A DNA stretch of 27,024 nucleotides. Source: a virus. Positions 2,378 to 25,216 of the stretch are shown piece after piece (within the stretch, counting starts at the first letter, position 1; every line of letters begins with the position of its first letter). The translations under genes and the position numbers were made by a program. A model generated the notes under the pieces. The model saw only the letters and a program-made list of their open reading frames with translations. It was not told the origin of the DNA and did not search any database. The DNA lies in the IMG/VR virus record IMGVR_UViG_3300042861_001069, positions 1 through 27,024 of that record. One strand, given 5' to 3'.

Positions 2378-2496
2378 TTAACAGAGGCATAAAGCAAGTA
2401 ATTAAAGAGGCCTTGTTTCAGGGCTTTTTCTGGATTGTCTCTCTCATTCTAGTCATATTGATAGCCATTAAATTCATAATCTATGTCAAAGGATAG
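2374..2496 (+). CDS. Small single-pass membrane protein (40 aa)
   Basis: A 40-codon frame starts at the ATG of an ATGA overlap with the previous stop and ends 14 bases inside the next gene. It encodes a short basic N-terminus (MINRGIKQVIKEA) followed by one strongly hydrophobic segment, residues 17-37, with FFWIVSLILVILIAIKFIIY, and a Lys-Gly end. The tight junctions on both sides and the clean membrane profile support a real gene. Small membrane proteins of this kind are common in phage accessory operons; no function can be assigned. Confidence 0.6.
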   Translation: MINRGIKQVIKEALFQGFFWIVSLILVILIAIKFIIYVKG

Positions 2497-3199
2497 AGAC
2501 ATCACCATCTGCCTGACCAGCTGCGGAAGGTTTGACTTACTTGAGAAAACGATCAGCTCATTGGTTACCTATTGGGATGGCCCTCCTCCTGCTGCATTCC
2601 TCATTCATGAGGACTCAGGAGCTATACCTACATCACTTGGCATTGAGCTTAACCGATTTCTAAAAAGGCATTGGCAGATTGAGGCTGAATGGTCAATGAG
2701 TAATCGGGCAGGACAAGTGCATGCAATAGATGTATTATACCAAAAGGTAGAAACTCCTTACATATTCCATTGCGAAGATGATTGGGAGTTCTACCAAGAG
2801 GGATTTATAGCTGATTCTAAGGCTGTGCTGCAACTTGACCGAACCATTTACACTGTATGGCTTCGGCATCCATCTGACCGCAATGGTCACCCAGTGCTGA
2901 ATGGAGCTAGAATTACCTTTAATAATGTCAGGTTTCAGGAGATGGCGGTTAATTTTAGAAGTCATAATCAAACCTGGCATGGCATGACCTGGAATCCGGG
3001 TCTCCGTAGGCTATCAGATTATATTGCTGCTGGCCCTTTCTCTAATTTCTGCGAGTGGAATACCAATGACCACTATGCAACTGAATTAGCATTCAATGCT
3101 CACTACCGGAAGCTAGGCTTTAAAGCAGCTACACTTTGCAGAGGATTTATTAAGCACATTGGCGATGTAAATACAACCAAGAAACTTCAGTCAAAATGA
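2483..3199 (+). CDS. GT-A fold glycosyltransferase (GT2-like)
   Basis: The 238-residue product has the opening strand ITICLTSCGRFDLLEKTISSL (residues 7-27, an 'LTSxGR..LL..TI.SL' pattern typical of GT-A enzymes) and an acidic motif, IFHCEDDWEF (94-103), in the place of the metal/nucleotide-sugar binding DxD. The C-terminal part (residues 150-235) is rich in Trp, His and Asn. It is a second glycosyltransferase, unrelated in detail to the family 25 enzyme at 270-938. Phage enzymes of this type may modify host surface sugars, virion proteins or hypermodified DNA bases; the sequence does not decide which. It overlaps its upstream neighbour by 14 bases and its downstream neighbour by 4 (ATGA). Confidence 0.75.
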   Translation: MSKDRDITICLTSCGRFDLLEKTISSLVTYWDGPPPAAFLIHEDSGAIPTSLGIELNRFLKRHWQIEAEWSMSNRAGQVHAIDVLYQKVETPYIFHCEDDWEFYQEGFIADSKAVLQLDRTIYTVWLRHPSDRNGHPVLNGARITFNNVRFQEMAVNFRSHNQTWHGMTWNPGLRRLSDYIAAGPFSNFCEWNTNDHYATELAFNAHYRKLGFKAATLCRGFIKHIGDVNTTKKLQSK

Positions 3200-4021: not shown

Positions 4022-4594
4022 ATGAAAGATAATCTGGAATTGATTAAAACATTAGAAGAAGAAGTTCTTGTAACTAAGCAACAAATAGATAATTATGAAA
4101 AAATTATAACTCCATTAAAAAATTCAATCTATGAAAAATGGGGTCAGATTAGAGAATTAAGAAAAACAATCTTGTTAAATTCTTTAGAATTATTTATATC
4201 AAATACAGATTATGTTTTAACTGACTATAATGAATCAAAAGAAAAGACCTTGGGTTGTTATTTTCTATATAAAAATAATGAGGTAATTTATATTGGAATT
4301 TCTATTGATATAAAAAATAGACTTGTTTCTCATAAGAACAGTGGCAAAGATTGGGATTATGTCAAATATATTTCGTGTACTGATTACTTAGAGGTTATTA
4401 AGATTGAATCCTATTATATTAATAAGCACAAGCCAAAACTAAATATTCAATTAGGTAACTATATGGAAATAGCCAAAAATCACGGATTCAAAGTAGATGA
4501 TGAACTAATAAATTATCAAAAAGGATGGCCCGATAAAGTAGTAGGTGAAACCAAAAGGTCAAAGTTTAAAAAGTTTAAATCAGATTACAGATAA
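4022..4594 (+). CDS. GIY-YIG endonuclease family protein
   Basis: The 190-residue product has an N-terminal coiled coil (about 1-60) followed by a GIY-YIG nuclease domain. The first strand CYFLYKNNEVIYIGIS (79-94) holds the Y...YIG motif. Arg100 and His104 (KNRLVSHK) are the usual helix residues, Glu129 (KIESYYI) the metal-binding Glu, and Asn141 follows in PKLN. These positions match the active site of the family (UvrC, homing enzymes such as I-TevI). The gene is far more AT-rich than its neighbours: rows 4081-4140 and 4261-4320 contain 10 and 9 G+C of 60. That points to recent acquisition. It has no intron or split gene around it, so it is best seen as a free-standing, possibly homing, nuclease. 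Confidence 0.8.
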   Translation: MKDNLELIKTLEEEVLVTKQQIDNYEKIITPLKNSIYEKWGQIRELRKTILLNSLELFISNTDYVLTDYNESKEKTLGCYFLYKNNEVIYIGISIDIKNRLVSHKNSGKDWDYVKYISCTDYLEVIKIESYYINKHKPKLNIQLGNYMEIAKNHGFKVDDELINYQKGWPDKVVGETKRSKFKKFKSDYR

Positions 4595-4904: not shown

Positions 4905-5194
4905 ATATGCTGGACTATTGGGATGAACCGCATTATGAGAAGCCATTGAGTAAGCACATTGAGCAAATGAAAAAGAAGCCTGATGCTATCAATCATCCAG
5001 AGCATTACGGAGGCTCAGACAGCACCTATGAGGCCATTAAGGTCATTGATGCTTGGAAGCTAGGCTTCTGCCTTGGCAATGTGATCAAGTATATTTCAAG
5101 AGCTGGCAAGAAGGGAAGCAAGCTGGAAGACTTACGGAAGGCTCAGTGGTATCTTAACCATGAGATTGAGAGGCTGCAAGGAGGTTGCTTTTAA
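4901..5194 (+). CDS. DUF3310 family protein
   Basis: The 97-residue product (GTG start at 4901; an ATG two codons in, at 4907, is the alternative) carries the whole DUF3310 signature. INHPEHYGG is at residues 30-38, then YEAIKVIDAW (43-52), GFCLGNVIKYISRAGKKG (55-72), and EDLRKAQWYLNHEIERL (76-92). DUF3310 proteins are common in phages, are sometimes called nucleotide-kinase-like, and have no settled function. It is followed after one base by the PAPS-reductase-like gene, so the two are probably made together. Confidence 0.88.
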   Translation: MNMLDYWDEPHYEKPLSKHIEQMKKKPDAINHPEHYGGSDSTYEAIKVIDAWKLGFCLGNVIKYISRAGKKGSKLEDLRKAQWYLNHEIERLQGGCF

Positions 5195-5195
5195 A

Positions 5196-6014
5196 ATGAA
5201 AAACATTCTTATAGCAGTATCTGGAGGTAGGTCATCAGCTATGATGGCTTACCACATTCACACAAGTGAAAAATATAAGCACTATAATAAAGCCTATGTG
5301 TTTGCCAATACCGGCATGGAAAGGCCTGAAACTATTGAGTTTCTTAAAAACATTCAGTCAGTATGGGGAATTCCTTTAACACTAATTGAAGGCACTTATT
5401 CAAATGTTATGGGTGTTGGTGTTGGCTATAAAATTGTTGATTGGCATAGTTTAGATATGAAAGCGAATGTTTTTGAGCAGTGTATTATGCACATGAACAA
5501 AGGATCTTTTGATGGGTTGCCAAATCAAGAAGTACCTTACTGCTCGGAAAGGATGAAAACTATTCCTTGTAATAAATTTGCTAAAGATATTTTTAATGGT
5601 GAAAAATACATCAAGGCTATTGGCTTTAGAAGGGAGGACATGCCGAAGAGAATTTCTTGGGCAGAAATCAAGCACGATGAGCAAAGGATATTTCCACTGC
5701 TTACTGACTTTATTGAACCTATTGGTTTGCCTGAATTAAACTCTTGGTGGAATCAACAACAATTTAAACTTGGCATTAATTCTAAGTTTGGCAACTGCGA
5801 ATTGTGTTGGAAAAAGTCAGACAATAACCTAGTTGAAATTATTCGTAATGGGACAAGATTTGTTGATTGGTGGCAAAAAATGGAAAACCAATATGGCAAC
5901 ACTTCATTTAGAAATCGAAAATCAATAGTAGATTTAGTGGCTATGGCTGCTCAGCCTAAAACTATGAGCATTGACTTTTCTGATTCATCAGAAGGTTGTA
6001 TGTGTCAGATGTAG
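5196..6014 (+). CDS. PAPS reductase-like PP-loop enzyme
   Basis: The 272-residue product belongs to the phosphoadenosine-phosphosulfate reductase / adenine-nucleotide alpha hydrolase family. It has an ATP-pyrophosphatase-type P-loop, AVSGGRSSAMMAYH, at residues 7-20, and the second-strand motif FANTGMERPETIEFL at 36-50. It also has YCSERMKTIPCNKF (115-128), IGFRREDMPKR (142-152), a CELC pair (Cys201, Cys204) and a C-terminal CMC (Cys268, Cys270). Family members reduce PAPS or activate nucleotides for sulfur transfer, as in tRNA thiolation and DNA phosphorothioation (DndC). Six cysteines in three pairs suggest an Fe-S cluster or a redox relay; this is inferred. The frame reaches back to 5160, but ATG 5196 starts directly at the first conserved strand and avoids overlap with DUF3310. 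Substrate unknown. Confidence 0.82.
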   Translation: MKNILIAVSGGRSSAMMAYHIHTSEKYKHYNKAYVFANTGMERPETIEFLKNIQSVWGIPLTLIEGTYSNVMGVGVGYKIVDWHSLDMKANVFEQCIMHMNKGSFDGLPNQEVPYCSERMKTIPCNKFAKDIFNGEKYIKAIGFRREDMPKRISWAEIKHDEQRIFPLLTDFIEPIGLPELNSWWNQQQFKLGINSKFGNCELCWKKSDNNLVEIIRNGTRFVDWWQKMENQYGNTSFRNRKSIVDLVAMAAQPKTMSIDFSDSSEGCMCQM

Positions 6015-9215: not shown

Positions 9216-9250
9216 CCTTGAACCACTTTCAGAACCACCTTGAACCACTT
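9216..9250. repeat. Three phased GAACCAC repeats at a convergent gene end
   Basis: CCTTGAACCACTT occurs twice (9216-9228 and 9238-9250), and the core GAACCAC occurs three times at 9220, 9232 and 9242, spaced 12 and 10 bases, about one helical turn. Just upstream, AGGTT-GTAAT-AACCT (9203-9217) can form a five-pair hairpin. The block fills the gap between the nuclease stop and the MuF stop (9249-9251), the convergence point of two transcripts. It may be a protein-binding or termination site. Confidence 0.55.
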
Positions 9251-10115
9251 ACCTTATCCCTGCTCTGCCTTTCTCCTTGGCTGACTCATACTGCTCTTTA
9301 GCAACAGGCCAGAGCTGATGGCGGCAGTTGTAGCCTCCACGATAGCTGAATATAGTAGTGCTGTTAGTGCCAGCCATGCGTCCCTGCCAGCCTTTAAGGT
9401 TAGGCCACTTCTGGACTTCTTCCTTAGTGAAGAACCTGCCTGCCCTAGCCACACAGAATGGCCTTGAGTCCTGAATTAATGTGCCTTGATATAGGTAAAA
9501 CTCAACATCAAGGTCTTCAGCTATGGTTTGGATGTACTCAGCGTTAAAGGTCATCACTGAGTCATTGGTAGTCTGCTTGATGTATCGCTCAAGAAATGCT
9601 TTCTCTGTGTCAGTTCCCTCAATGAACTTCCTTAAGGTTTTATTCAGCTCAGACCTTGTGCCAATCCCTGCAATGTTGTCCTTCAGTACCTCCTGAATAG
9701 CAGTTCCAAAGTTGTTTCTGATGCCTGCTCCTAGGAGTGCATCCTTGGTTGTGGCTATATTGGTCTCCAGGATTGCCTTGTAAAGCTCGGTCTTAGGCTT
9801 AAAGTCATCAATTATGAGACTGATGTAATCATTTGATAGCTTGGCAAGCTGGTCAAACCCGGCAACTACTTCAGCCACTTGTGCCTGATATAGGCTATTA
9901 TTAACAATCGTATCTGAGATGTCCTTCTTGAGCTTAATCATCTCCTTTAATGACTTCGCCCTATCCTTGGCATCTAGGTTGAGATTGCCAGCTAGGTCAA
10001 TCACCTGATTGGATAGCTTTTCAAAGACTTTAGGAAGCGCATCATCCATGCGCCTCTCAATAGCCATCTGAAGCTCCTGAATCTTCTTGATTAACTCAAG
10101 CTGCTTGTCGGTCAT
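9249..10115 (-). CDS. MuF-like minor head protein
   Basis: The 288-residue product has a long helical N-terminal part (about 1-200). Its C-terminal domain matches the Mu gpF / SPP1 gp7 pattern: DSRPFCVARAGRFFTKEEVQ (about 218-237), then KGWQGRMAG, and finally FSYRGGYNCRHQLWPVAKEQ (255-274), the 'GG..CRH...P' ending of the family. MuF proteins sit at the portal and are packaged into the head, often with a role in DNA delivery. It starts at ATG 10115 in an ATGA overlap with the portal gene, the usual portal-MuF pairing. Confidence 0.8.
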   Translation of the reverse strand: MTDKQLELIKKIQELQMAIERRMDDALPKVFEKLSNQVIDLAGNLNLDAKDRAKSLKEMIKLKKDISDTIVNNSLYQAQVAEVVAGFDQLAKLSNDYISLIIDDFKPKTELYKAILETNIATTKDALLGAGIRNNFGTAIQEVLKDNIAGIGTRSELNKTLRKFIEGTDTEKAFLERYIKQTTNDSVMTFNAEYIQTIAEDLDVEFYLYQGTLIQDSRPFCVARAGRFFTKEEVQKWPNLKGWQGRMAGTNSTTIFSYRGGYNCRHQLWPVAKEQYESAKEKGRAGIR

Positions 10116-11950
10116 ACTTGGTCATCTGGACTTGACGTGTCCTCAACATCATCCATTAAAGGCACTAATCCAGATTGAATCTCTGACATCTTAATTGCTG
10201 CTAGAGCATACACATCAGCTCTCTGCTGCTGCACGGGCTTATCATACCATCCGGCATCTTCATCAACTTTCTGCATGACAAATGCCGCTAGGTTGGCACT
10301 CAGGATGTAATCTAATTGAGTGCAGCCATTGCTTGCCAGCAGGACAGTCTTTTCATCTGTACTCTTGAATGGCAGTGGATCAAGCTGACTTAGTATCTTC
10401 AGATATGTTTTCTGAATGCTGTTCTCGCCATAGAGCTTTTCAACATAGTCTTTTTCAATGCCTGCTGTGATAAGTGGGTTAAACTTATTGGTCATTGCCT
10501 TAGATAGCTGCTCAGCTACCATGTCGGCAGTCATCACATCATAGTCAGTAGGCACAGTAATCTGAGGCAGAGCAGCCATCACTTTGTCGCTGTCCATCAG
10601 AGAAGAGCCAAACAGCGAATTGTAACGCTGATACATGATGTAATAGCAGACCTTGCGATAAACCTGAGCCAGATGCACAGTCACAGAGAAGCAGAAGGTG
10701 TTTAGCTCTTTGCGGTCATACTCCTTGGCTATGCCTGATTGAGCTGCCGGAATCTGCCCTAGTAACTCAAGGCCAATGGCTTTGAATCCTTGAAACTCCT
10801 TCTGAAGAATGTCCTCCTGGAATAACTTAACAGTTTCAGTTGGCCTCTCAATGTAGCCAGCTGGAGGCACAGGCGGCACAAGTGGGTTAGGATTGACAGC
10901 ACTCACTCTGTCAATATTGATTTCCATCAGGCCAAATGGTGAGCTTGATGCTCTTCCAGAGCCTTGACAATCATTACAGCCTATCTTCTCATCCTTCCTA
11001 TTTGTCCTAATTCCTGTGCCATTGCAGGTCTTGCATGGTGACATCTTCAATGCCCACTTCTGTGGAAGGGCATGAGTGGCCCACAATATATTCAAGTCAT
11101 CAGTCCTGAATAGGACTTCATTCCATGCCGGGAGGCAAGGAGCAAGGACTGAGTCATAGACTAACTGACCATCTTCTTCTTCATAGATAATATTGCCAAC
11201 CTTACAGGCAGGCAGGTAGCTGAACTCGTAAGGCAGGATGAACACCTGAAAAGGCTGGTCATAGGTGTACTGATTGACCTGCCGGAACAGCATAAGCCCT
11301 TGAGTAGTGAAGCAGAGAAACTGATCCCACTTCTTGCGGTTCATGTCCTTGTAATCCTCGGTCTTAGTGATGACATAGTCCTCACCTTCCCAAATTAAAT
11401 CTTCAGATTCAATGATGTGAGGGTAAGGCTTTGACCAGTCTAGGGTAGTGACCTGAGATGGATTCTTAACGAACTCATCATAGTCTGGCACAGTAATTAC
11501 AACGGCATTACTGTCCTTCAGATAAGTCTTAAGAAACACATTGAAAAGCCACTTCTCCAGGCTTCCTGTTTTTGGCAGTTCATACTCAACATAATTCTTG
11601 AGCGTGTTGTCCATCAGGCCTATGCGTTCAGCAATGCCTGTCTTTTTAAAGTCAGATTCAAATGTGATTTTAAAATCATCAGCTTGCTGAATCTTTTGGA
11701 GGAAAGTAAAGACTCTCCCGGTGGCAGTTGTTGTAGGAGCTTGCCATCTGCGCCTCCTGTACTCCTTCATCCATGGCTCTTCGCTCGGATGCTGAGTAAC
11801 CAAGAGTTTTTCGGGGTACTCATTCTCAAAGTGGTACTCAAGCTCTTCAGCTTTTTCCCTAGCCTCCTCAATATAGTCGTGCCTGCCTTCTCTGATTTTC
11901 TGATCCAGCAACTTTGACAATAAGACCCCGATTAACTCTTCCATGCTCAT
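10112..11950 (-). CDS. Portal-like protein with DnaJ-type zinc-finger insertion
   Basis: The 612-residue product is the best candidate for the portal: right size, directly before MuF, an N-terminal helical part, a beta-rich middle, and the segment QSGIAKEYDRKELN (404-417), similar to the 'SG.A..yd...l' segment of siphophage portals (DUF4055-like). Unusually, residues 306-332 hold two CxxCxGxG units, CKTCNGTG (306-313) and CNDCQGSG (325-332), as in the DnaJ cysteine-rich domain, enough to bind one zinc. The region around the insertion follows a conserved-looking segment, WATHALPQKWALKMSPCK. The portal makes the dodecameric ring through which DNA enters the head. It starts one base after the previous stop. 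Confidence 0.72.
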   Translation of the reverse strand: MSMEELIGVLLSKLLDQKIREGRHDYIEEAREKAEELEYHFENEYPEKLLVTQHPSEEPWMKEYRRRRWQAPTTTATGRVFTFLQKIQQADDFKITFESDFKKTGIAERIGLMDNTLKNYVEYELPKTGSLEKWLFNVFLKTYLKDSNAVVITVPDYDEFVKNPSQVTTLDWSKPYPHIIESEDLIWEGEDYVITKTEDYKDMNRKKWDQFLCFTTQGLMLFRQVNQYTYDQPFQVFILPYEFSYLPACKVGNIIYEEEDGQLVYDSVLAPCLPAWNEVLFRTDDLNILWATHALPQKWALKMSPCKTCNGTGIRTNRKDEKIGCNDCQGSGRASSSPFGLMEINIDRVSAVNPNPLVPPVPPAGYIERPTETVKLFQEDILQKEFQGFKAIGLELLGQIPAAQSGIAKEYDRKELNTFCFSVTVHLAQVYRKVCYYIMYQRYNSLFGSSLMDSDKVMAALPQITVPTDYDVMTADMVAEQLSKAMTNKFNPLITAGIEKDYVEKLYGENSIQKTYLKILSQLDPLPFKSTDEKTVLLASNGCTQLDYILSANLAAFVMQKVDEDAGWYDKPVQQQRADVYALAAIKMSEIQSGLVPLMDDVEDTSSPDDQV

Positions 11951-19803: not shown

Positions 19804-22329
19804 TCATGAATCAGTCCTGAACCTATTGTTCAAAATTTTAGTTGTCCTTCTGGGCGTTCTGATGAATTTCTCAAAGCCTCGCTCATCCATGCTGAGCTGA
19901 GTGATAGGCAATGACTTTAAGATGCTGCCCAGCTCATCCAACTTGCCCACCACCGGAGAGCCTGAGCTGCTGTTGCGGTTGGAATAGTGGTTAGCCAGGA
20001 ACAGCTCTTGCCTGCTTAAGGCATGGTTAGGTATTACTTGTGAGCCTTTAGGGAGATCAACCAAGGTTGCAGATGCCGGAGTGAAGTAAACTTTGCCCGA
20101 CTCAGTCACAACTTTCTCCACCCCTCGCTCACCGACTATTGCTTTCCCTCCTTTGAATGGCTTTCCTTTTGTTCCTTCTGCAAACTCAGGCACAGGCTGG
20201 GCCATGATAAAGCCTATCTGTGCAGCCTGATTAAACAGTGTAAGTGCAGCAAGTGGCAATGTAACCGGGTTACTTGACCACTTAGCAACTATTGATGCGG
20301 TCTCAAATATTACCCTAGCCACAGCAGCTGTCTGCTCAGCCTTCCATGCCTTCATTTTTAGCTCTCTTTCCTTCTGCTCCCTGCGCTGATTTATTTCATC
20401 AATCTTTTGCTGATTGCCATCTGCTAACCTAATTTCTTGTTCGTATCTCTTGTCATTCAGAGCCATTTCATTGTTTATTCTAGCCTGAAATAATCCAAAT
20501 GCGCCATCAGATAAAGTCTGTGCCAGCTCAATGCCTTTTTGAACAGCCTCAATCCTTTCCTCTAGCTCTTTCTGCCTTCGCTCTTCTCTTTCTTTGGCAA
20601 ACTTTTTATCAAGCTCATTTAGTTTTTCTAATAGGTCGATCTCAAGTTGCTCAATTTCAAAATTTACCTTTTGTCTTTTAAATGTTCTTTCCTCTTGTGC
20701 CTTGGTTTTTTCAGCTTCAAATTTTGCATTTTCCTCTCGCTGTTTTTTAATCGCATCAAGCACATCTTGAGTTTCTGACTTTAAATCTCTAATTGTCTGA
20801 ACCCTGTTAAGTTCTTTTTCAAGTCTTGTTTTTTCAATTCCATCCTTAGCCGCCTCTACTCCTAATGCAGCATACTGAACTTGCAGCTTATAGACATCTT
20901 TTAAAAATTTATCCTCAGCCTTAAATTCTTCTCTGAGTAGGTCAATTTTATTATCATATCTAATTTTATTAATGATAGATGATAATTCTCTTTCAAGTTG
21001 TAAAAGTTTAAGCCTTCTCTCATATTCCTCCTTATCTCTTTTTGCTTTTTCTTTCACATCTTCAGGGGAAGCTAAGACAGGTGTATTGATGATAACCCCA
21101 GCAATTTTGGAATACTGTTCCTCCATTGCCTGAAGTATTTTTAGCTCATTCTCCTGCTTTGTTAAGTTCATCTGAAGCCTACTGCTCATAGTTCCAGCAG
21201 CTGATATTCTAGCCTCTGATACTTTAAGCATCTGCGCTTCAATTCTACCCTCAATGCCTAAAAGCTGATTTAAAGCAATCTTTTTCCTGATGTCATCCAG
21301 ATTAGCAGCTGTTATCTTGACTATTCTCTGCTGATCCAATTTAATTGTCTCTTTGGTTAGCTCGGTCTCAATGCGCTTCTGAGCCACCGCTTCAGCATTA
21401 AACTTAGCTTGCCTTTCAGCTGTTGTCTCTCCTCCAGCCTTAGCTAAGTTAGCTGCAATCCCAGCAGCCAAATCATAAGCACCTTTCAGGAATGGATTAA
21501 GTTTATTGCCTATGGCTAAAATTAGCTGGTCAATGGATGAGTTAAATCTATTCTGGCTGGCAGCTAATGTAGTAACCTGCTGATTGCCCTTACCGAATGT
21601 ATTTTCAAGCTCAGTGGCAAACTTTGGAAGGAAGTCGCTAGCAAGTACTTGACCTTTCTGAAGCATCTTGTTAAGCTCTCCGGTAGTTACTCCCATAGCC
21701 TTGGCTGCTATGCCGAATGCGCCTACAAGTCTCTCACCTAACTGTCCTCTGAGTTCTTCAGCCTGCACGTTGCCTTTGGACATCATTTGTCCAAGTGCCA
21801 GGAATGCGCCTTTAGTATCTTCCGCAGATAAGCCCATCACTTGAGCTGCCTTGGCTACCGCTGCAAATTGCCTGTTAGTTTCTTGGCTGCTCTGCCCTGC
21901 CAGATTAGAGGCAGAGGCAAAGGTCTTATAGCCTTCAACTGCGCCCCTCAAATCAAGGCCCAGCTTCTGAGCTGTCTGTCTGACAAATTCAAAGTTCTTA
22001 TTGCCCATCTCGGCAGAGCCAGAGGCAAAGTCAATGGCCTTTCGCATTGCCTCGAACTTGATGGTAGTCTCAACCACAGCAGAGGCGAACTGCTTAATCT
22101 GACTTACCGCAAATAGGCCGCCTAAAACACCTCCAACTTTCCCGGCTATGCTTCCAAGCTCGCCAAATGACTTATTGGTGTTCTGGCTCTCCTGGTTAAA
22201 CTTTTTAAGCTCAGCTAGAGCCTGCTTTTCTTCAGCAGATAATTTATCAAAGGCCTGTGCTGCCGCTTCCAGATTGGAAGTCTCAACCAGATACCTAATC
22301 TTGATGTCATTAGTAGAAATAGTAGCCAT
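19804..22329 (-). CDS. Tape measure protein
   Basis: The 841-residue product sets tail length and is threaded through the tail tube. Near the N-terminus it has the TMP_3-type domain: FASGSAEMGNKNFEFVRQTA, LGQMMSKGNVQAEELRGQLG and ERLVGAFGIAAKAMGVTTGE, about residues 95-230. Long Lys/Glu-rich coiled coils fill about 330-640, then a hydrophobic segment (ASIVAKWSSNPVTLPLAALT) and a Gly/Pro-rich region before the C-terminus. The frame is open to TTG 22350, which lies inside the candidate promoter, so ATG 22329 is chosen. At 0.15 nm per residue the tail would be about 126 nm, an estimate from a general rule. It follows the chaperone gene, the usual place. Confidence 0.9.
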   Translation of the reverse strand: MATISTNDIKIRYLVETSNLEAAAQAFDKLSAEEKQALAELKKFNQESQNTNKSFGELGSIAGKVGGVLGGLFAVSQIKQFASAVVETTIKFEAMRKAIDFASGSAEMGNKNFEFVRQTAQKLGLDLRGAVEGYKTFASASNLAGQSSQETNRQFAAVAKAAQVMGLSAEDTKGAFLALGQMMSKGNVQAEELRGQLGERLVGAFGIAAKAMGVTTGELNKMLQKGQVLASDFLPKFATELENTFGKGNQQVTTLAASQNRFNSSIDQLILAIGNKLNPFLKGAYDLAAGIAANLAKAGGETTAERQAKFNAEAVAQKRIETELTKETIKLDQQRIVKITAANLDDIRKKIALNQLLGIEGRIEAQMLKVSEARISAAGTMSSRLQMNLTKQENELKILQAMEEQYSKIAGVIINTPVLASPEDVKEKAKRDKEEYERRLKLLQLERELSSIINKIRYDNKIDLLREEFKAEDKFLKDVYKLQVQYAALGVEAAKDGIEKTRLEKELNRVQTIRDLKSETQDVLDAIKKQREENAKFEAEKTKAQEERTFKRQKVNFEIEQLEIDLLEKLNELDKKFAKEREERRQKELEERIEAVQKGIELAQTLSDGAFGLFQARINNEMALNDKRYEQEIRLADGNQQKIDEINQRREQKERELKMKAWKAEQTAAVARVIFETASIVAKWSSNPVTLPLAALTLFNQAAQIGFIMAQPVPEFAEGTKGKPFKGGKAIVGERGVEKVVTESGKVYFTPASATLVDLPKGSQVIPNHALSRQELFLANHYSNRNSSSGSPVVGKLDELGSILKSLPITQLSMDERGFEKFIRTPRRTTKILNNRFRTDS

Positions 22330-22347: not shown

Positions 22348-22355
22348 CAAAGATA
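22348..22355 (-). promoter_or_regulatory. TATCTTTG -7-like element ahead of the tape measure
   Basis: TATCTTTG on the minus strand is a perfect TAnnTTTG match, ends 18 bases before ATG 22329, and sits six bases after the T-run of the preceding terminator. The same octamer stands 16 bases before the starts at 23219 and 25860. No -33 element was seen upstream, where the terminator stem lies. Confidence 0.45.
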
Positions 22356-22361
22356 GTAATT

Positions 22362-22386
22362 AAAAAAGCCACCGGAATCCGATGGC
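22362..22386 (-). terminator. Intrinsic terminator between chaperone and tape measure genes
   Basis: An eight-pair stem (22379-22386 with 22368-22375, one G-U) with an ATT loop is followed by six T on the minus strand (22367-22362), and A's on the other side extend the pairing. It begins about 30 bases after the stop at 22417 that ends the frameshifted chaperone reading. It separates the chaperone transcript from the tape measure, whose own -7-like element follows. Confidence 0.8.
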
Positions 22387-22416: not shown

Positions 22417-23219
22417 CTATCCCTTACCCTTTCTTGATTTCTGCGCTGCAATATAGCTGCTGACAATCAAATAGTACTCATAGATTGGCCTTTCGACCAG
22501 GAATTTAGCTCTGATAGGATCTCCACCTGAGACTCTAGACTGCTCATCAAATCTAAGTCTGTGCTGTCTGGTAATTGCAGTCCAATAATGTGTTTCAGGT
22601 TGTTTAGGCTTTGCAGCGTTTCGGCCTGCAAATAGGTCGGGAAATTCGTGCTGTATTCTGTCAAAGAGGGCAGATATGCGTACTCTGGCAGTGTCAAAAA
22701 AAAACCCTCAACATCATTGTGCTTCATCCAATGCTCCAACTTCTGCTTATTGTATGGATATTGATAATCCAGTGGATTTTCGTGTTCATCAAAGTACACA
22801 ACTGTTGCCAGCTTCAGCTGCCGGAGTAGGCTTACGGACATCTCCATCTGCTCCTTGAGCCTTGAGGCCATAACACCTATCTCATACAGCTTCTTATCAT
22901 CCTTCTTTTTCTTGTCCATGAGCAGGTTTATCAGCCCATTGTTCCAGCCTCTCAGAAAGTCTGGGTTAATCTGCCAAAGTTCTTCTGTAAAGATGTCCCG
23001 GGCAGCCACTGCCCTCTGGAATGGCACATTGACCTCAGACACAAACTTGAAGTAATTGACTCCACCGGAGGTGAACGCAAATTCAATCTGATCCCATCGG
23101 TCAGCAGGAGCTACTCCCCTGTAAAGTATTCGGCCTGCTTCTCCCTGAATAGGAGCTTCTTCTGCCACTTGTTCAGCAGCAGGAGGCACAGATGGTTTGC
23201 GCCTAAATAAATTGAACAT
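22417..23219 (-). CDS. Tail assembly chaperone, predicted -1 frameshift (long) product
   Basis: Reading frame 0 from ATG 23219 for 174 codons, slipping back one base on the T-run, gives a 267-residue protein ending at TAG 22419-22417. The last 92 residues come from the -1 frame: it is open, uses mostly AGA for Arg like neighbouring genes, and contains LFDRIQHEFPDLFAG, THYWTAITRQHRLRF and ERPIYEYYLIVSSYIAAQ. It ends about 30 bases before a terminator. Long/short chaperone pairs made by frameshifting (lambda gpG and gpGT) are standard just upstream of tape measures; they coat the tape measure during tail assembly and are absent from the virion. The position and slip heptamer support this strongly. 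An alternative is a single-base sequencing error in the run, in which case this is the only product. Confidence 0.72.
22467..23219 (-). CDS. Tail assembly chaperone, frame-0 (short) product
   Basis: Without a slip, translation from ATG 23219 gives 250 residues. The N-terminal 174 are shared with the long form: MFNLFRRKPSVPPAAEQ, then WDQIEFAFTSGGVNYFKFVS, INPDFLRGWNNGL and a Lys-rich helix. After the T-run, 76 more frame-0 codons end at TGA 22467. This tail is Leu/Ser-rich and less protein-like than the -1 reading; it may be a real short-form C-terminus or a chance opening. The gene overlaps the membrane protein upstream by 109 bases. It does not look like a portal despite the similar-looking start. 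Confidence 0.65.
   Translation of the reverse strand: MFNLFRRKPSVPPAAEQVAEEAPIQGEAGRILYRGVAPADRWDQIEFAFTSGGVNYFKFVSEVNVPFQRAVAARDIFTEELWQINPDFLRGWNNGLINLLMDKKKKDDKKLYEIGVMASRLKEQMEMSVSLLRQLKLATVVYFDEHENPLDYQYPYNKQKLEHWMKHNDVEGFFLTLPEYAYLPSLTEYSTNFPTYLQAETLQSLNNLKHIIGLQLPDSTDLDLMSSLESQVEILSELNSWSKGQSMSTI
22695..22704 (-). promoter_or_regulatory. -1 ribosomal frameshift site (T9, heptamer T TTT TTG)
   Basis: On the minus strand nine T's (22704-22696) are followed by G. In frame 0 the codons are GGT TTT TTT TTG, so T TTT TTG is a perfect X XXY YYZ slippery heptamer. Slipping at it places the ribosome in the -1 frame, which stays open for 92 codons. No stimulatory downstream structure was searched for in detail. 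Confidence 0.75.
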
Positions 23220-23506
23220 AGATAGAATGGATAGTCAAAGATAAGGCATGAGATGACCAGGAACTGCCAAGCTCCTGAGCAGAAAGGGCATTCACCTAGT
23301 GGCTTCGCCCACAGTGTCGGCAGCTTCTGAATCTGGGAAAGATACCACTGCCCAAGTGGGTGATCCTCCAGCAGAAAGTCCAAGAATAAAGAGAAAGTCG
23401 CACTGATCAGTGCTATTAAGAGTAAGGTAAGCAGGCTGCTCATCGTGTGGTAACTCGATAATGCAGCAGCCTCTGCGCTTACCTCCACAATTTGATTTAA
23501 AGTCAT
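23111..23506 (-). CDS. Membrane protein with CPFC motif (131 aa)
   Basis: The product has a hydrophobic segment (MSSLLTLLLIALISATFSLF, residues 22-41), a polar turn with LGECPFCSGAWQF (70-82), and a second hydrophobic part (LVISCLIFDYPFYLCSIYLG, 83-102) plus a Leu-rich third. A CP(Y/F)C-x-G-(A/F)W motif next to a membrane span is typical of small phage and bacterial membrane proteins of the DUF1360 kind. The start is ATG 23506, or ATG 23443 if the first 21 residues are not translated. The end runs 109 bases into the chaperone gene. Role unknown. Confidence 0.6.
   Translation of the reverse strand: MTLNQIVEVSAEAAALSSYHTMSSLLTLLLIALISATFSLFLDFLLEDHPLGQWYLSQIQKLPTLWAKPLGECPFCSGAWQFLVISCLIFDYPFYLCSIYLGANHLCLLLLNKWQKKLLFREKQAEYFTGE
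23236..23243 (-). promoter_or_regulatory. TATCTTTG -7-like element ahead of the chaperone gene
   Basis: TATCTTTG on the minus strand matches the -7 consensus and ends 16 bases before ATG 23219. It lies inside the coding sequence of the upstream membrane protein. The octamer and spacing equal those at 25877-25884. No clear -33 element at 17-23 bases was found. Confidence 0.4.
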
Positions 23507-23517
23507 TGTTCATTGGT

Positions 23518-23901
23518 TTATCCGAAAATGTTTAAGACTAAAATGTTATCCTCCTGATTGCTGTAAGTTGTAGCAAAACTCAGGCAGATGCTGTCATACT
23601 CATTGCCATCAGTCGGCATAAAGATATATGGATTATTGTTGCCCGGCTCATAGAAGCTGATGTGATATTGCCCACCGTAGCTATTGATGAATCCTTCAGG
23701 CATTGCTGTCAGGTCAATCTCAATGAAGCCCTCAAGGTCAATGGTAAGCAACTGCTCAACGATGACATTTACTCCTGGCTTAGTGATTTTAATTACTATG
23801 TCAGCCTCGGTGTAGGTAATAGGCACAGCGATGTAAAACGCAAAAGGGCAGCCATTGAGAGGCTCACAGACCTTGAAACAATCACTGCAGCATAGTGCCA
23901 T
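23518..23901 (-). CDS. Small beta-rich structural-type protein (127 aa)
   Basis: ATG 23901 lies 20 bases inside the end of the terminase gene; an earlier ATG at 24012 only reads that gene out of frame. The 127-residue product begins MALCCSDCFKVCEPLNGCPF, with five clustered cysteines, then strands with IVIKITKPGVNVIVEQLLTI and DLTAMPEGFINSYGGQYHIS. The all-beta pattern resembles small tail-associated proteins of Bacteroidota phages. No specific role can be given. Confidence 0.6.
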   Translation of the reverse strand: MALCCSDCFKVCEPLNGCPFAFYIAVPITYTEADIVIKITKPGVNVIVEQLLTIDLEGFIEIDLTAMPEGFINSYGGQYHISFYEPGNNNPYIFMPTDGNEYDSICLSFATTYSNQEDNILVLNIFG

Positions 23902-25216
23902 ACTTCTCCAGGTTAAAGTTGCTTGTAATTTCAGCAAAGTTAGAGAAAATAAAATAGCGGAAGGCATCCAGAGCATGAGACTTGTCTGGGTTCTTATTCT
24001 TCCAAGGGTCAAGGCTGCCCTGCCTGTCTACCTTGGCCTCCTTGAGGTCTGTGACCAGCTCCTCACATCGCTTGCCACTAATCTGCACCTTGGCCTTCTG
24101 AAGAACTAGGATTGTCACCAGCCTGCTGGCTATGTGGCTAGGATTGGACTTGGCAACTTGAAGCTGCATGTCATTTACCTGAAGATAGTTTTTAATGAGC
24201 GCATAGGCACTGATATTGTCCATCGTAAACGCATTACGAGCAGCACCGGAGGCATCACCGTTGATGATGTAGGTCATGCCTGGGAACTCCTGCCGGATAG
24301 TTTGGCACAAGCCAGCTAGATCGCCAATGCGATAAACCTTAATCACATTGATGGTGGCATAGTAGATGCCTTCCTCAGAGTTCTTGATGTACTGAGCAAC
24401 TACGCATGTGTTGGTAACATTGAAGTCAAAGGCTAAGTATAGATTGTGAGCAGGAGAGGCCTTGATGTAGCCATCATAGACATGCCTGCTGAAGTCGAAG
24501 CTGGTGGCAAATAGGCTTTCCCTATCCCAAATGCCCCACTGACCAAGTGCATAGACTTCGTAATAAGTCTGGCTTACCGACTTGAGTGCCTCCATCCTTG
24601 TGACATACTCATCATCTAGGAAGTCTATGGCATCCTTGTAAGTGCCATGCAGCCGCAGCACTTGATTGGCCTCCTTTGGCGGCACATCATCAAAAAACCT
24701 TTTCTTAATCCAGTGTGAATCGGAGACCGGATTAAAAGTCAGGAAGAAACGCTTTGGATGCTCTGACTTACCTCTCAAGCGCAAAGTTATCTGAGTGAAG
24801 TCCTCAAGAGTCAGTTCTGTTGCCTCCTCAATCCAGATGTATTTAGCCTGGCTAAGTGACTTCAGCTTTTCAGGATCATCACAGCCAAGGAACACAATCT
24901 TATTAGTGCCGGATTGCAGCTCCATGTAGCCTGTCTTAGCCTTGATGAGCTTATCCAATCCCCATTGGCTAATCTTGTTTCTGAAGTCAGCAAAGACTGA
25001 GTTTCTGATGGTAGCCGCAACCTTGCGAATCACGAAGAAGGTCTGGAATTGATTGGCCTTATTGTCGCATATCTCAGCAAGGAATAGTTGAATCATGGTC
25101 TGGCTCTTGCCACTTCCAGCTCCGCCCCAAAGGATATTGTAAGTCTTAGGGTCTGTTACTGCATCAAGATATTTCTCCTGCCATAAGTCAGGGCTTGACA
25201 AATCAACCTTCGGCAT
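23882..25216 (-). CDS. terL: Terminase large subunit
   Basis: The 444-residue product is the ATP-driven packaging motor and nuclease. The ATPase has Walker A GGAGSGKSQT (31-40), Walker B YIWIEEATE (126-134) and the coupling segment FFLTFNPVSD (157-166). The nuclease domain has Asp264 in LAFDFNV, Asp321 in INGDASGAARN, and Asp411/Asp417 in PDKSHALDAFRYF, the metal-binding acidic residues of RNase H-like terminase nucleases. Length is normal. It starts 14 bases inside the small subunit gene. Docked to the portal, it cuts and packs DNA. It is assigned with high certainty. Confidence 0.95.
   Translation of the reverse strand: MPKVDLSSPDLWQEKYLDAVTDPKTYNILWGGAGSGKSQTMIQLFLAEICDNKANQFQTFFVIRKVAATIRNSVFADFRNKISQWGLDKLIKAKTGYMELQSGTNKIVFLGCDDPEKLKSLSQAKYIWIEEATELTLEDFTQITLRLRGKSEHPKRFFLTFNPVSDSHWIKKRFFDDVPPKEANQVLRLHGTYKDAIDFLDDEYVTRMEALKSVSQTYYEVYALGQWGIWDRESLFATSFDFSRHVYDGYIKASPAHNLYLAFDFNVTNTCVVAQYIKNSEEGIYYATINVIKVYRIGDLAGLCQTIRQEFPGMTYIINGDASGAARNAFTMDNISAYALIKNYLQVNDMQLQVAKSNPSHIASRLVTILVLQKAKVQISGKRCEELVTDLKEAKVDRQGSLDPWKNKNPDKSHALDAFRYFIFSNFAEITSNFNLEKYGTMLQ

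Follow-up and report, generated by a model that had tools for sequence, protein, structure and literature searches.

A putative tail assembly chaperone gene with two alternative C-terminal domains and a predicted -1 frameshift, probably ribosomal, in a so far undescribed phage family of Bacteroidota

The sequence analyzed here, hereafter called the window, is the whole stretch of 27,024 nt of the IMG/VR record IMGVR_UViG_3300042861_001069, and all positions given below follow its numbering. On its minus strand lies an open reading frame of 250 codons plus stop (22467-23219, hereafter the 0-frame), which shows full-length homology in related sequences and which we consider to encode a putative tail assembly chaperone. 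The slip site within this gene is a run of nine T's (T9) at 22696-22704 on the minus strand, equivalent to nine A's on the plus strand, which the 0-frame reads as GAG GGT TTT TTT TTG ACA; the core of this sequence, GGT TTT TTT TTG, contains the overlapping heptamers T_TTT_TTT and T_TTT_TTG. Homopolymers of at least seven nucleotides are represented in the window by this T9 and a single T7, none other reaching eight. Codons 1 to 174 (22698-23219, minus strand) encode the N-terminal part common to both predicted products. Beyond it the 0-frame continues for 76 codons (175-250; 22470-22697, minus strand), whereas the -1 frame runs for 92 codons (22420-22695, minus strand) to a stop at 22417-22419, the predicted product of a -1 slip having 175 + 92 = 267 residues. 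A previous sequence-only reading of this DNA had placed nine T's with an in-frame T_TTT_TTG at the same positions and had predicted the 92-codon frame and the 267-residue form; these features are correct, with the addition of the overlapping T_TTT_TTT, which it did not name. The C-terminal parts were modelled by AF2 at low confidence, the 0-frame tail as a helical hairpin (pLDDT 54 for the 0-frame product) and the -1 part as all-helical (pLDDT 68).

The tape measure gene follows directly downstream (19804-22329, minus strand), as the same reading had proposed, and is recognized by PF20155 TMP_3 (E 1.7e-29) together with many PHROG tail length tape measure families; its listed start is a TTG at 22350, but the ATG at 22329 is likelier. 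Among the 26 copies of the chaperone gene examined for this arrangement, 24 have an open reading frame of tape measure size (752-1168 aa) within about 210 nt downstream, and in the other two none was found within the available stretch; PF20155 matched six of the ten downstream frames that were scanned. Between the two genes of the window, 30 nt past the -1 stop, lies a terminator-like hairpin followed by T6 (22362-22386, minus strand; stem GCCATCGG/CCGGTGGC). A terminator in this place, also anticipated from the sequence alone, is detected by our hairpin scan in 90/105 near relatives, in 0/28 far relatives and in 0/139 cases in a control stretch, even if a consensus terminator scan did not list the hairpin at 22362-22386. 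In far relatives the chaperone and tape measure genes abut. The hairpin may set the ratio between the chaperone and the tape measure protein.

Upstream of the chaperone gene, a small membrane protein is encoded at 23111-23506 (minus strand), carrying a conserved ECPFCSGAWQ-type motif, and the 3' end of its frame extends over the initial 109 nt of the chaperone gene (23111-23219). An overlap of tens of nucleotides between these two genes is retained in relatives, and the chaperone gene is thus overlapped at both ends, its 3' part being dual-coding as described below. The large terminase subunit, TerL (23882-25216, minus strand; PF04466), lies farther upstream, and the order of the cassette, namely TerL, small gene, membrane gene, chaperone and tape measure, is the same in far relatives. 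The major tail protein gene does not precede the chaperone, the upstream positions being taken by TerL, the small gene and the membrane gene, and neither a capsid gene nor a major tail gene could be recognized in the window. Positions 9249-11950, far downstream of TerL and past the tail genes, hold a portal-like gene (weak match to phrog_7376) together with its neighbour, and apparent moron genes occupy 5160-6014, 4022-4594, 2483-3199 and 270-1055; one of these frames resembles a PAPS reductase (phrog_424), and visual inspection suggests likeness to a GIY-YIG nuclease for another and to glycosyltransferases for the remaining two. The window is probably partial (relatives span 34.5-36.9 kb).

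The gene family is absent from the annotated phage records and domain libraries that we searched. A tblastn comparison with 50,697 annotated phages gave no match for the protein of the window, nor for that of a very remote relative, L155, and both products lack matches above chance in Pfam and PHROGs, in agreement with the earlier statement that the chaperone shows no recognizable family. Sequence searches of Pfam, PHROG, NCBIfam and the PDB matched no known chaperone, and a fold search of the PDB with the weak AF2 model of the 0-frame product (pLDDT 54) returned nothing at E <= 0.001. A scan of IMG/VR identified 149 contigs encoding relatives of the gene. Remote relatives were added by further scans and by a genome scan, and deduplication left a compared set of 143 distinct sequences, 114 near and 29 far; the counts of run length and heptamer given below were taken over these 143. 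A search for remote copies in 395 Bacteroidota genomes of one class yielded seven new matches in five genomes, excluding a known one.

None of the 143 distinct relatives lacks an in-frame T_TTT_TTN heptamer, the run being T9 in 134 of them, T8 in three, T7 in three, T6 followed by C in two and T10 in one, a degree of conservation that is far beyond chance. The eight relatives with T6-T8 runs belong to at least two lineages (mostly to one clade, and once to L164); all retain both T_TTT_TTY and the -1 architecture, two of the eight reading TTTTTTC. The codon on the 5' side of the run differs among relatives (GGT, GAT, GCT, AGT or ACT), with T as its third base in all but three, and in these exceptions T9 fills three Phe codons (GAG/GGC TTT TTT TTT). 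Copies in Bacteroidota metagenome-assembled genomes (MAG), with 31-36% protein identity, retain the invariant residues of the N-terminal part and carry T9 at an unchanged codon. In five very remote Bacteroidota copies the run is again exactly T9, in one case in a different codon phase (CGC TTT TTT TTT); this count covers five of the seven new matches, L247 and L249 being left out. Considering the 43 upstream codons that specify a conserved amino acid, the only invariant third positions are the three inside the T-run, and the run itself is therefore under selection; upstream of the site, silent positions show no conservation beyond the run that would point to a Shine-Dalgarno-like element. By this distribution the slip site is ancient. 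Two relatives deserve mention for their organization: in L176 (IMGVR_UViG_2881677958_000001), T10 brings the C-terminal part into the 0-frame and the homologue of the tail into the +1 frame, which is either a read error or a case of the default product having been exchanged in nature; L251 has an apparent second, diverged tandem copy of the chaperone N-terminal part, located 3' of the first copy.

Beyond the slip site, both frames are maintained. The 0-frame tail has 76 codons in 81/99 near relatives and 82, 67 or 85 in the others (setting aside L002, discussed below, and sequences cut by contig ends, lengths are constant over 95 near relatives), and extends for 39-72 codons in remote relatives, the shortest being that of L155. 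The -1 part measures 90-101 codons in the near clade and 85-103 over all relatives, and is homologous in all of them save L002, L176 and the sequences cut by contig ends. The chance of finding the -1 frame open given the 0-frame protein is 0.3-3% by codon permutation, and that of finding the 0-frame open given the -1 protein is 3-18% in one sequence (codon redraw or permutation). Because codon permutation alone is insufficient to prove the 0-frame, we chose to measure divergence at 4-fold degenerate sites. Within the overlap, the 82 near relatives compared diverge at these sites by 0.068 in the -1 frame and by 0.258 in the 0-frame; the corresponding values are 0.551 in the upstream N-terminal part and 0.656 in the portion of the -1 frame immediately beyond the 0-frame stop, and the bootstrap ranges of the overlap and the controls are disjoint. 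Far relatives show the same pattern: 0.349 upstream, 0.107 and 0.167 in the overlap for the -1 frame and the 0-frame, respectively, and 0.511 past the stop. A 4-fold site of the -1 frame occupies the second position of a 0-frame codon. The low divergence of silent sites in the overlap (22470-22695, minus strand) points to purifying selection in both frames over about 228 nt, a long overprinted region, and indicates that the gene is organized as one N-terminal part with two alternative C-terminal domains. Since the 0-frame runs on for 76 conserved codons, its product and that of the -1 frame are to be regarded as forms with alternative C-termini rather than as a short form and its extension. 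The sequence comparison indicates that the programmed -1 shift predicted at the T-run is real and ancient, in a new protein family; the conservation of both frames and of the T-run, which had been proposed as a check of the prediction, is evident on both counts. The slippage itself we infer from the site, the frames and their conservation.

Could the 0-frame tail be a by-product, selection acting on the -1 domain only and the 0-frame remaining open by chance? The 3-18% probability calculated for a single sequence and the shorter tail of very remote copies such as L155 (39 codons) would fit such a situation, but the -1-frame divergence of 0.068 in the overlap against 0.656 past the 0-frame stop, the steady tail lengths of the 95 near relatives and the comparison of the window with its relative L003, which shows no difference in the 0-frame tail and 92.5% identity in the -1 part, largely refute this reading, which we deem very improbable. 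Even less credible is that the two frames derive from a homopolymer error in sequencing or assembly, the true gene being a single open reading frame. Homopolymers are error-prone, and two relatives, L002 and L176, do have a continuous C-terminal part in the 0-frame; however, the same T9 recurs in 134/143 distinct sequences from many metagenomes and both frames are under selection, which rules out sequencing error as well as a pseudogene. Relatives with a single intact frame, which the sequence-only reading had named as evidence against itself, are limited to these two doubtful cases. L002 (IMGVR_UViG_3300007169_001207) was rejected as a single-frame relative: its N-terminal and C-terminal parts come from different lineages, joined with one extra base just after T9 (junction around 941-975), and normal geometry is found in its sister L082, with which it shares 99% identity in the C-terminal part, for which reasons L002 is probably an assembly chimera formed at the shared slip-site sequence. 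With regard to function, the gene might encode a frameshifted virion or packaging protein instead of a tail assembly chaperone, in line with the lack of sequence homology to chaperones and with upstream neighbours consisting of TerL and small genes. This we consider unlikely, for a -1 slip gene lying directly before the tape measure gene reproduces the layout of the chaperones of lambda, P2, HK97, Mu and D29; position and layout thus make, by analogy, a function in tail assembly likely.

The agent of the slip is less clear-cut, for two mechanisms compete. RNA polymerase could slip at T9 and produce mRNAs with one additional U (or two fewer), which ordinary translation would then read in the -1 frame, whereas transcripts shorter by one U would end soon after the run, with an immediate TGA in the near clade. 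Bacterial RNA polymerase slips in vivo on nine T's, slippage at nine A or T is established in bacteria, with the dnaX gene of T. thermophilus making use of it, and the heptamers U_UUU_UUU and U_UUU_UUA are weak slip sites for E. coli ribosomes (PMC5009743). The same mechanism would suit the prevalence of exactly T9 (134/143 relatives), including the few in another codon phase (GAG/GGC or CGC TTT TTT TTT), would tolerate the T10 of L176 with its C-terminal part in the 0-frame, and is compatible with the +1 frame being closed at once in 99/99 near relatives checked. It also agrees with the lack of an RNA stimulator near the slip site: RNAalifold, applied to 55 nonredundant sequences, gave no conserved downstream stem-loop and an energy of 0 (pseudoknots are not modelled), and the folding z downstream of the site averaged about 0, no group showing structure. 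A candidate stimulatory structure in L164 was dropped when its window z of -4.4 in the first run became -1.6 on repeat. Against slippage by the polymerase stand the eight relatives with T6-T8, in at least two lineages, that retain the -1 architecture and the heptamer, and the fact that P2 frameshifts with T_TTT_TTG on just six T's; moreover, T9 can be accounted for by the heptamer together with a two-frame constraint on the Phe-Phe-Leu codons. Because lineages with only T6-T8 retain the heptamer, we favour ribosomal -1 slippage, to which we assign a probability of about 0.6, and which may act together with slippage of the polymerase. The latter appears about half as probable, and somewhat more doubtful still is the combination of an unshifted chaperone having its own conserved C-terminal domain with a switch set by RNA polymerase slippage on T9. 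We know of no other tail chaperone with a switch of this kind, and the present one would be the first, if true.

Under ribosomal slippage, most ribosomes would pass U9 in the 0-frame and produce the 250-residue protein, while a minority would slip by -1 on U_UUU_UUU or U_UUU_UUG and produce the 267-residue protein, in which the first 174 residues would be shared and the C-terminal domain would be different. Slipping on both heptamers would make residue 175 a mixture of Leu and Phe, as reported for the HIV slip site (PMC5009743). If lambda gpG/gpGT is taken as the model, the tape measure protein should be bound by the shared part, and tail tube subunits should be recruited by the rarer -1 domain; being conserved, the 0-frame tail must have a role of its own. 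It follows that the unshifted form of a chaperone can carry a dedicated C-terminus, and the overlap of about 228 nt with two selected frames provides a strong example of DNA-phage overprinting. Frameshifting in tail chaperones is among the most widely conserved recoding events, and Bacteroidota phages are poorly represented. For such phages, T9 with two open frames before the tape measure gene provides an annotation signature, and the natural series of runs (T9, T8, T7, T6C and T10) offers clean material for distinguishing ribosomal from RNA polymerase slippage.

Comparable organization of alternative C-termini is known outside phage tails. In influenza PA-X, an extended dual-coding segment is read, after a +1/+2 slip, into a second C-terminus. 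Potyvirus P3N-PIPO likewise obtains its alternative C-terminus by slippage into the other frame of a long dual-coding region (PMC5009743). Both are proteins of RNA viruses with other functions and without homology to the gene described here. Transcriptional slippage at T9/A9 in T. thermophilus dnaX and in Shigella spa13 and mxiE similarly yields proteins that differ in their C-termini, again with no RNA stimulator involved (PMC5009743), but these are not tail genes, whereas in our gene the ribosomal heptamer is retained when the run shortens. Closer to the present case is gpE/gpE+E' of phage P2, which has the heptamer in the same codon setting (GGT TTT TTG), a -1 shift and the tape measure gene T directly after the frameshift gene; it differs in having a T6 run, an E protein of 91 aa and a 0-frame that ends six codons past the site, instead of 76, and no sequence similarity was detected between E and the gene of the window. 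The sequence-only reading had compared the locus with lambda gpG/gpGT, and this comparison stands for the two products with a common N-terminal part, which arise by a -1 slip, and for the position before the tape measure gene (PMC5009743). It does not extend to the slip site, which is GGGAAAG in lambda, to the 0-frame, which in lambda ends five codons later, in contrast to the conserved tail of the present gene, or to the upstream genes, gene G following the major tail protein gene V in lambda, whereas the present gene is preceded by TerL and two small genes. On the evidence of lambda and P2, with overlaps of 52, 38 and 223 nt, respectively, for the chaperones of HK97, Mu and D29 that are upper bounds only, such a long 0-frame tail appears to be unusual, and the short 0-frame end seen in lambda and P2 may not be a defining trait of the whole chaperone kind. 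A -1 slip in a tail chaperone gene is thus already known, and what is new, and unusual, is the conserved alternative C-terminus of the unshifted frame.
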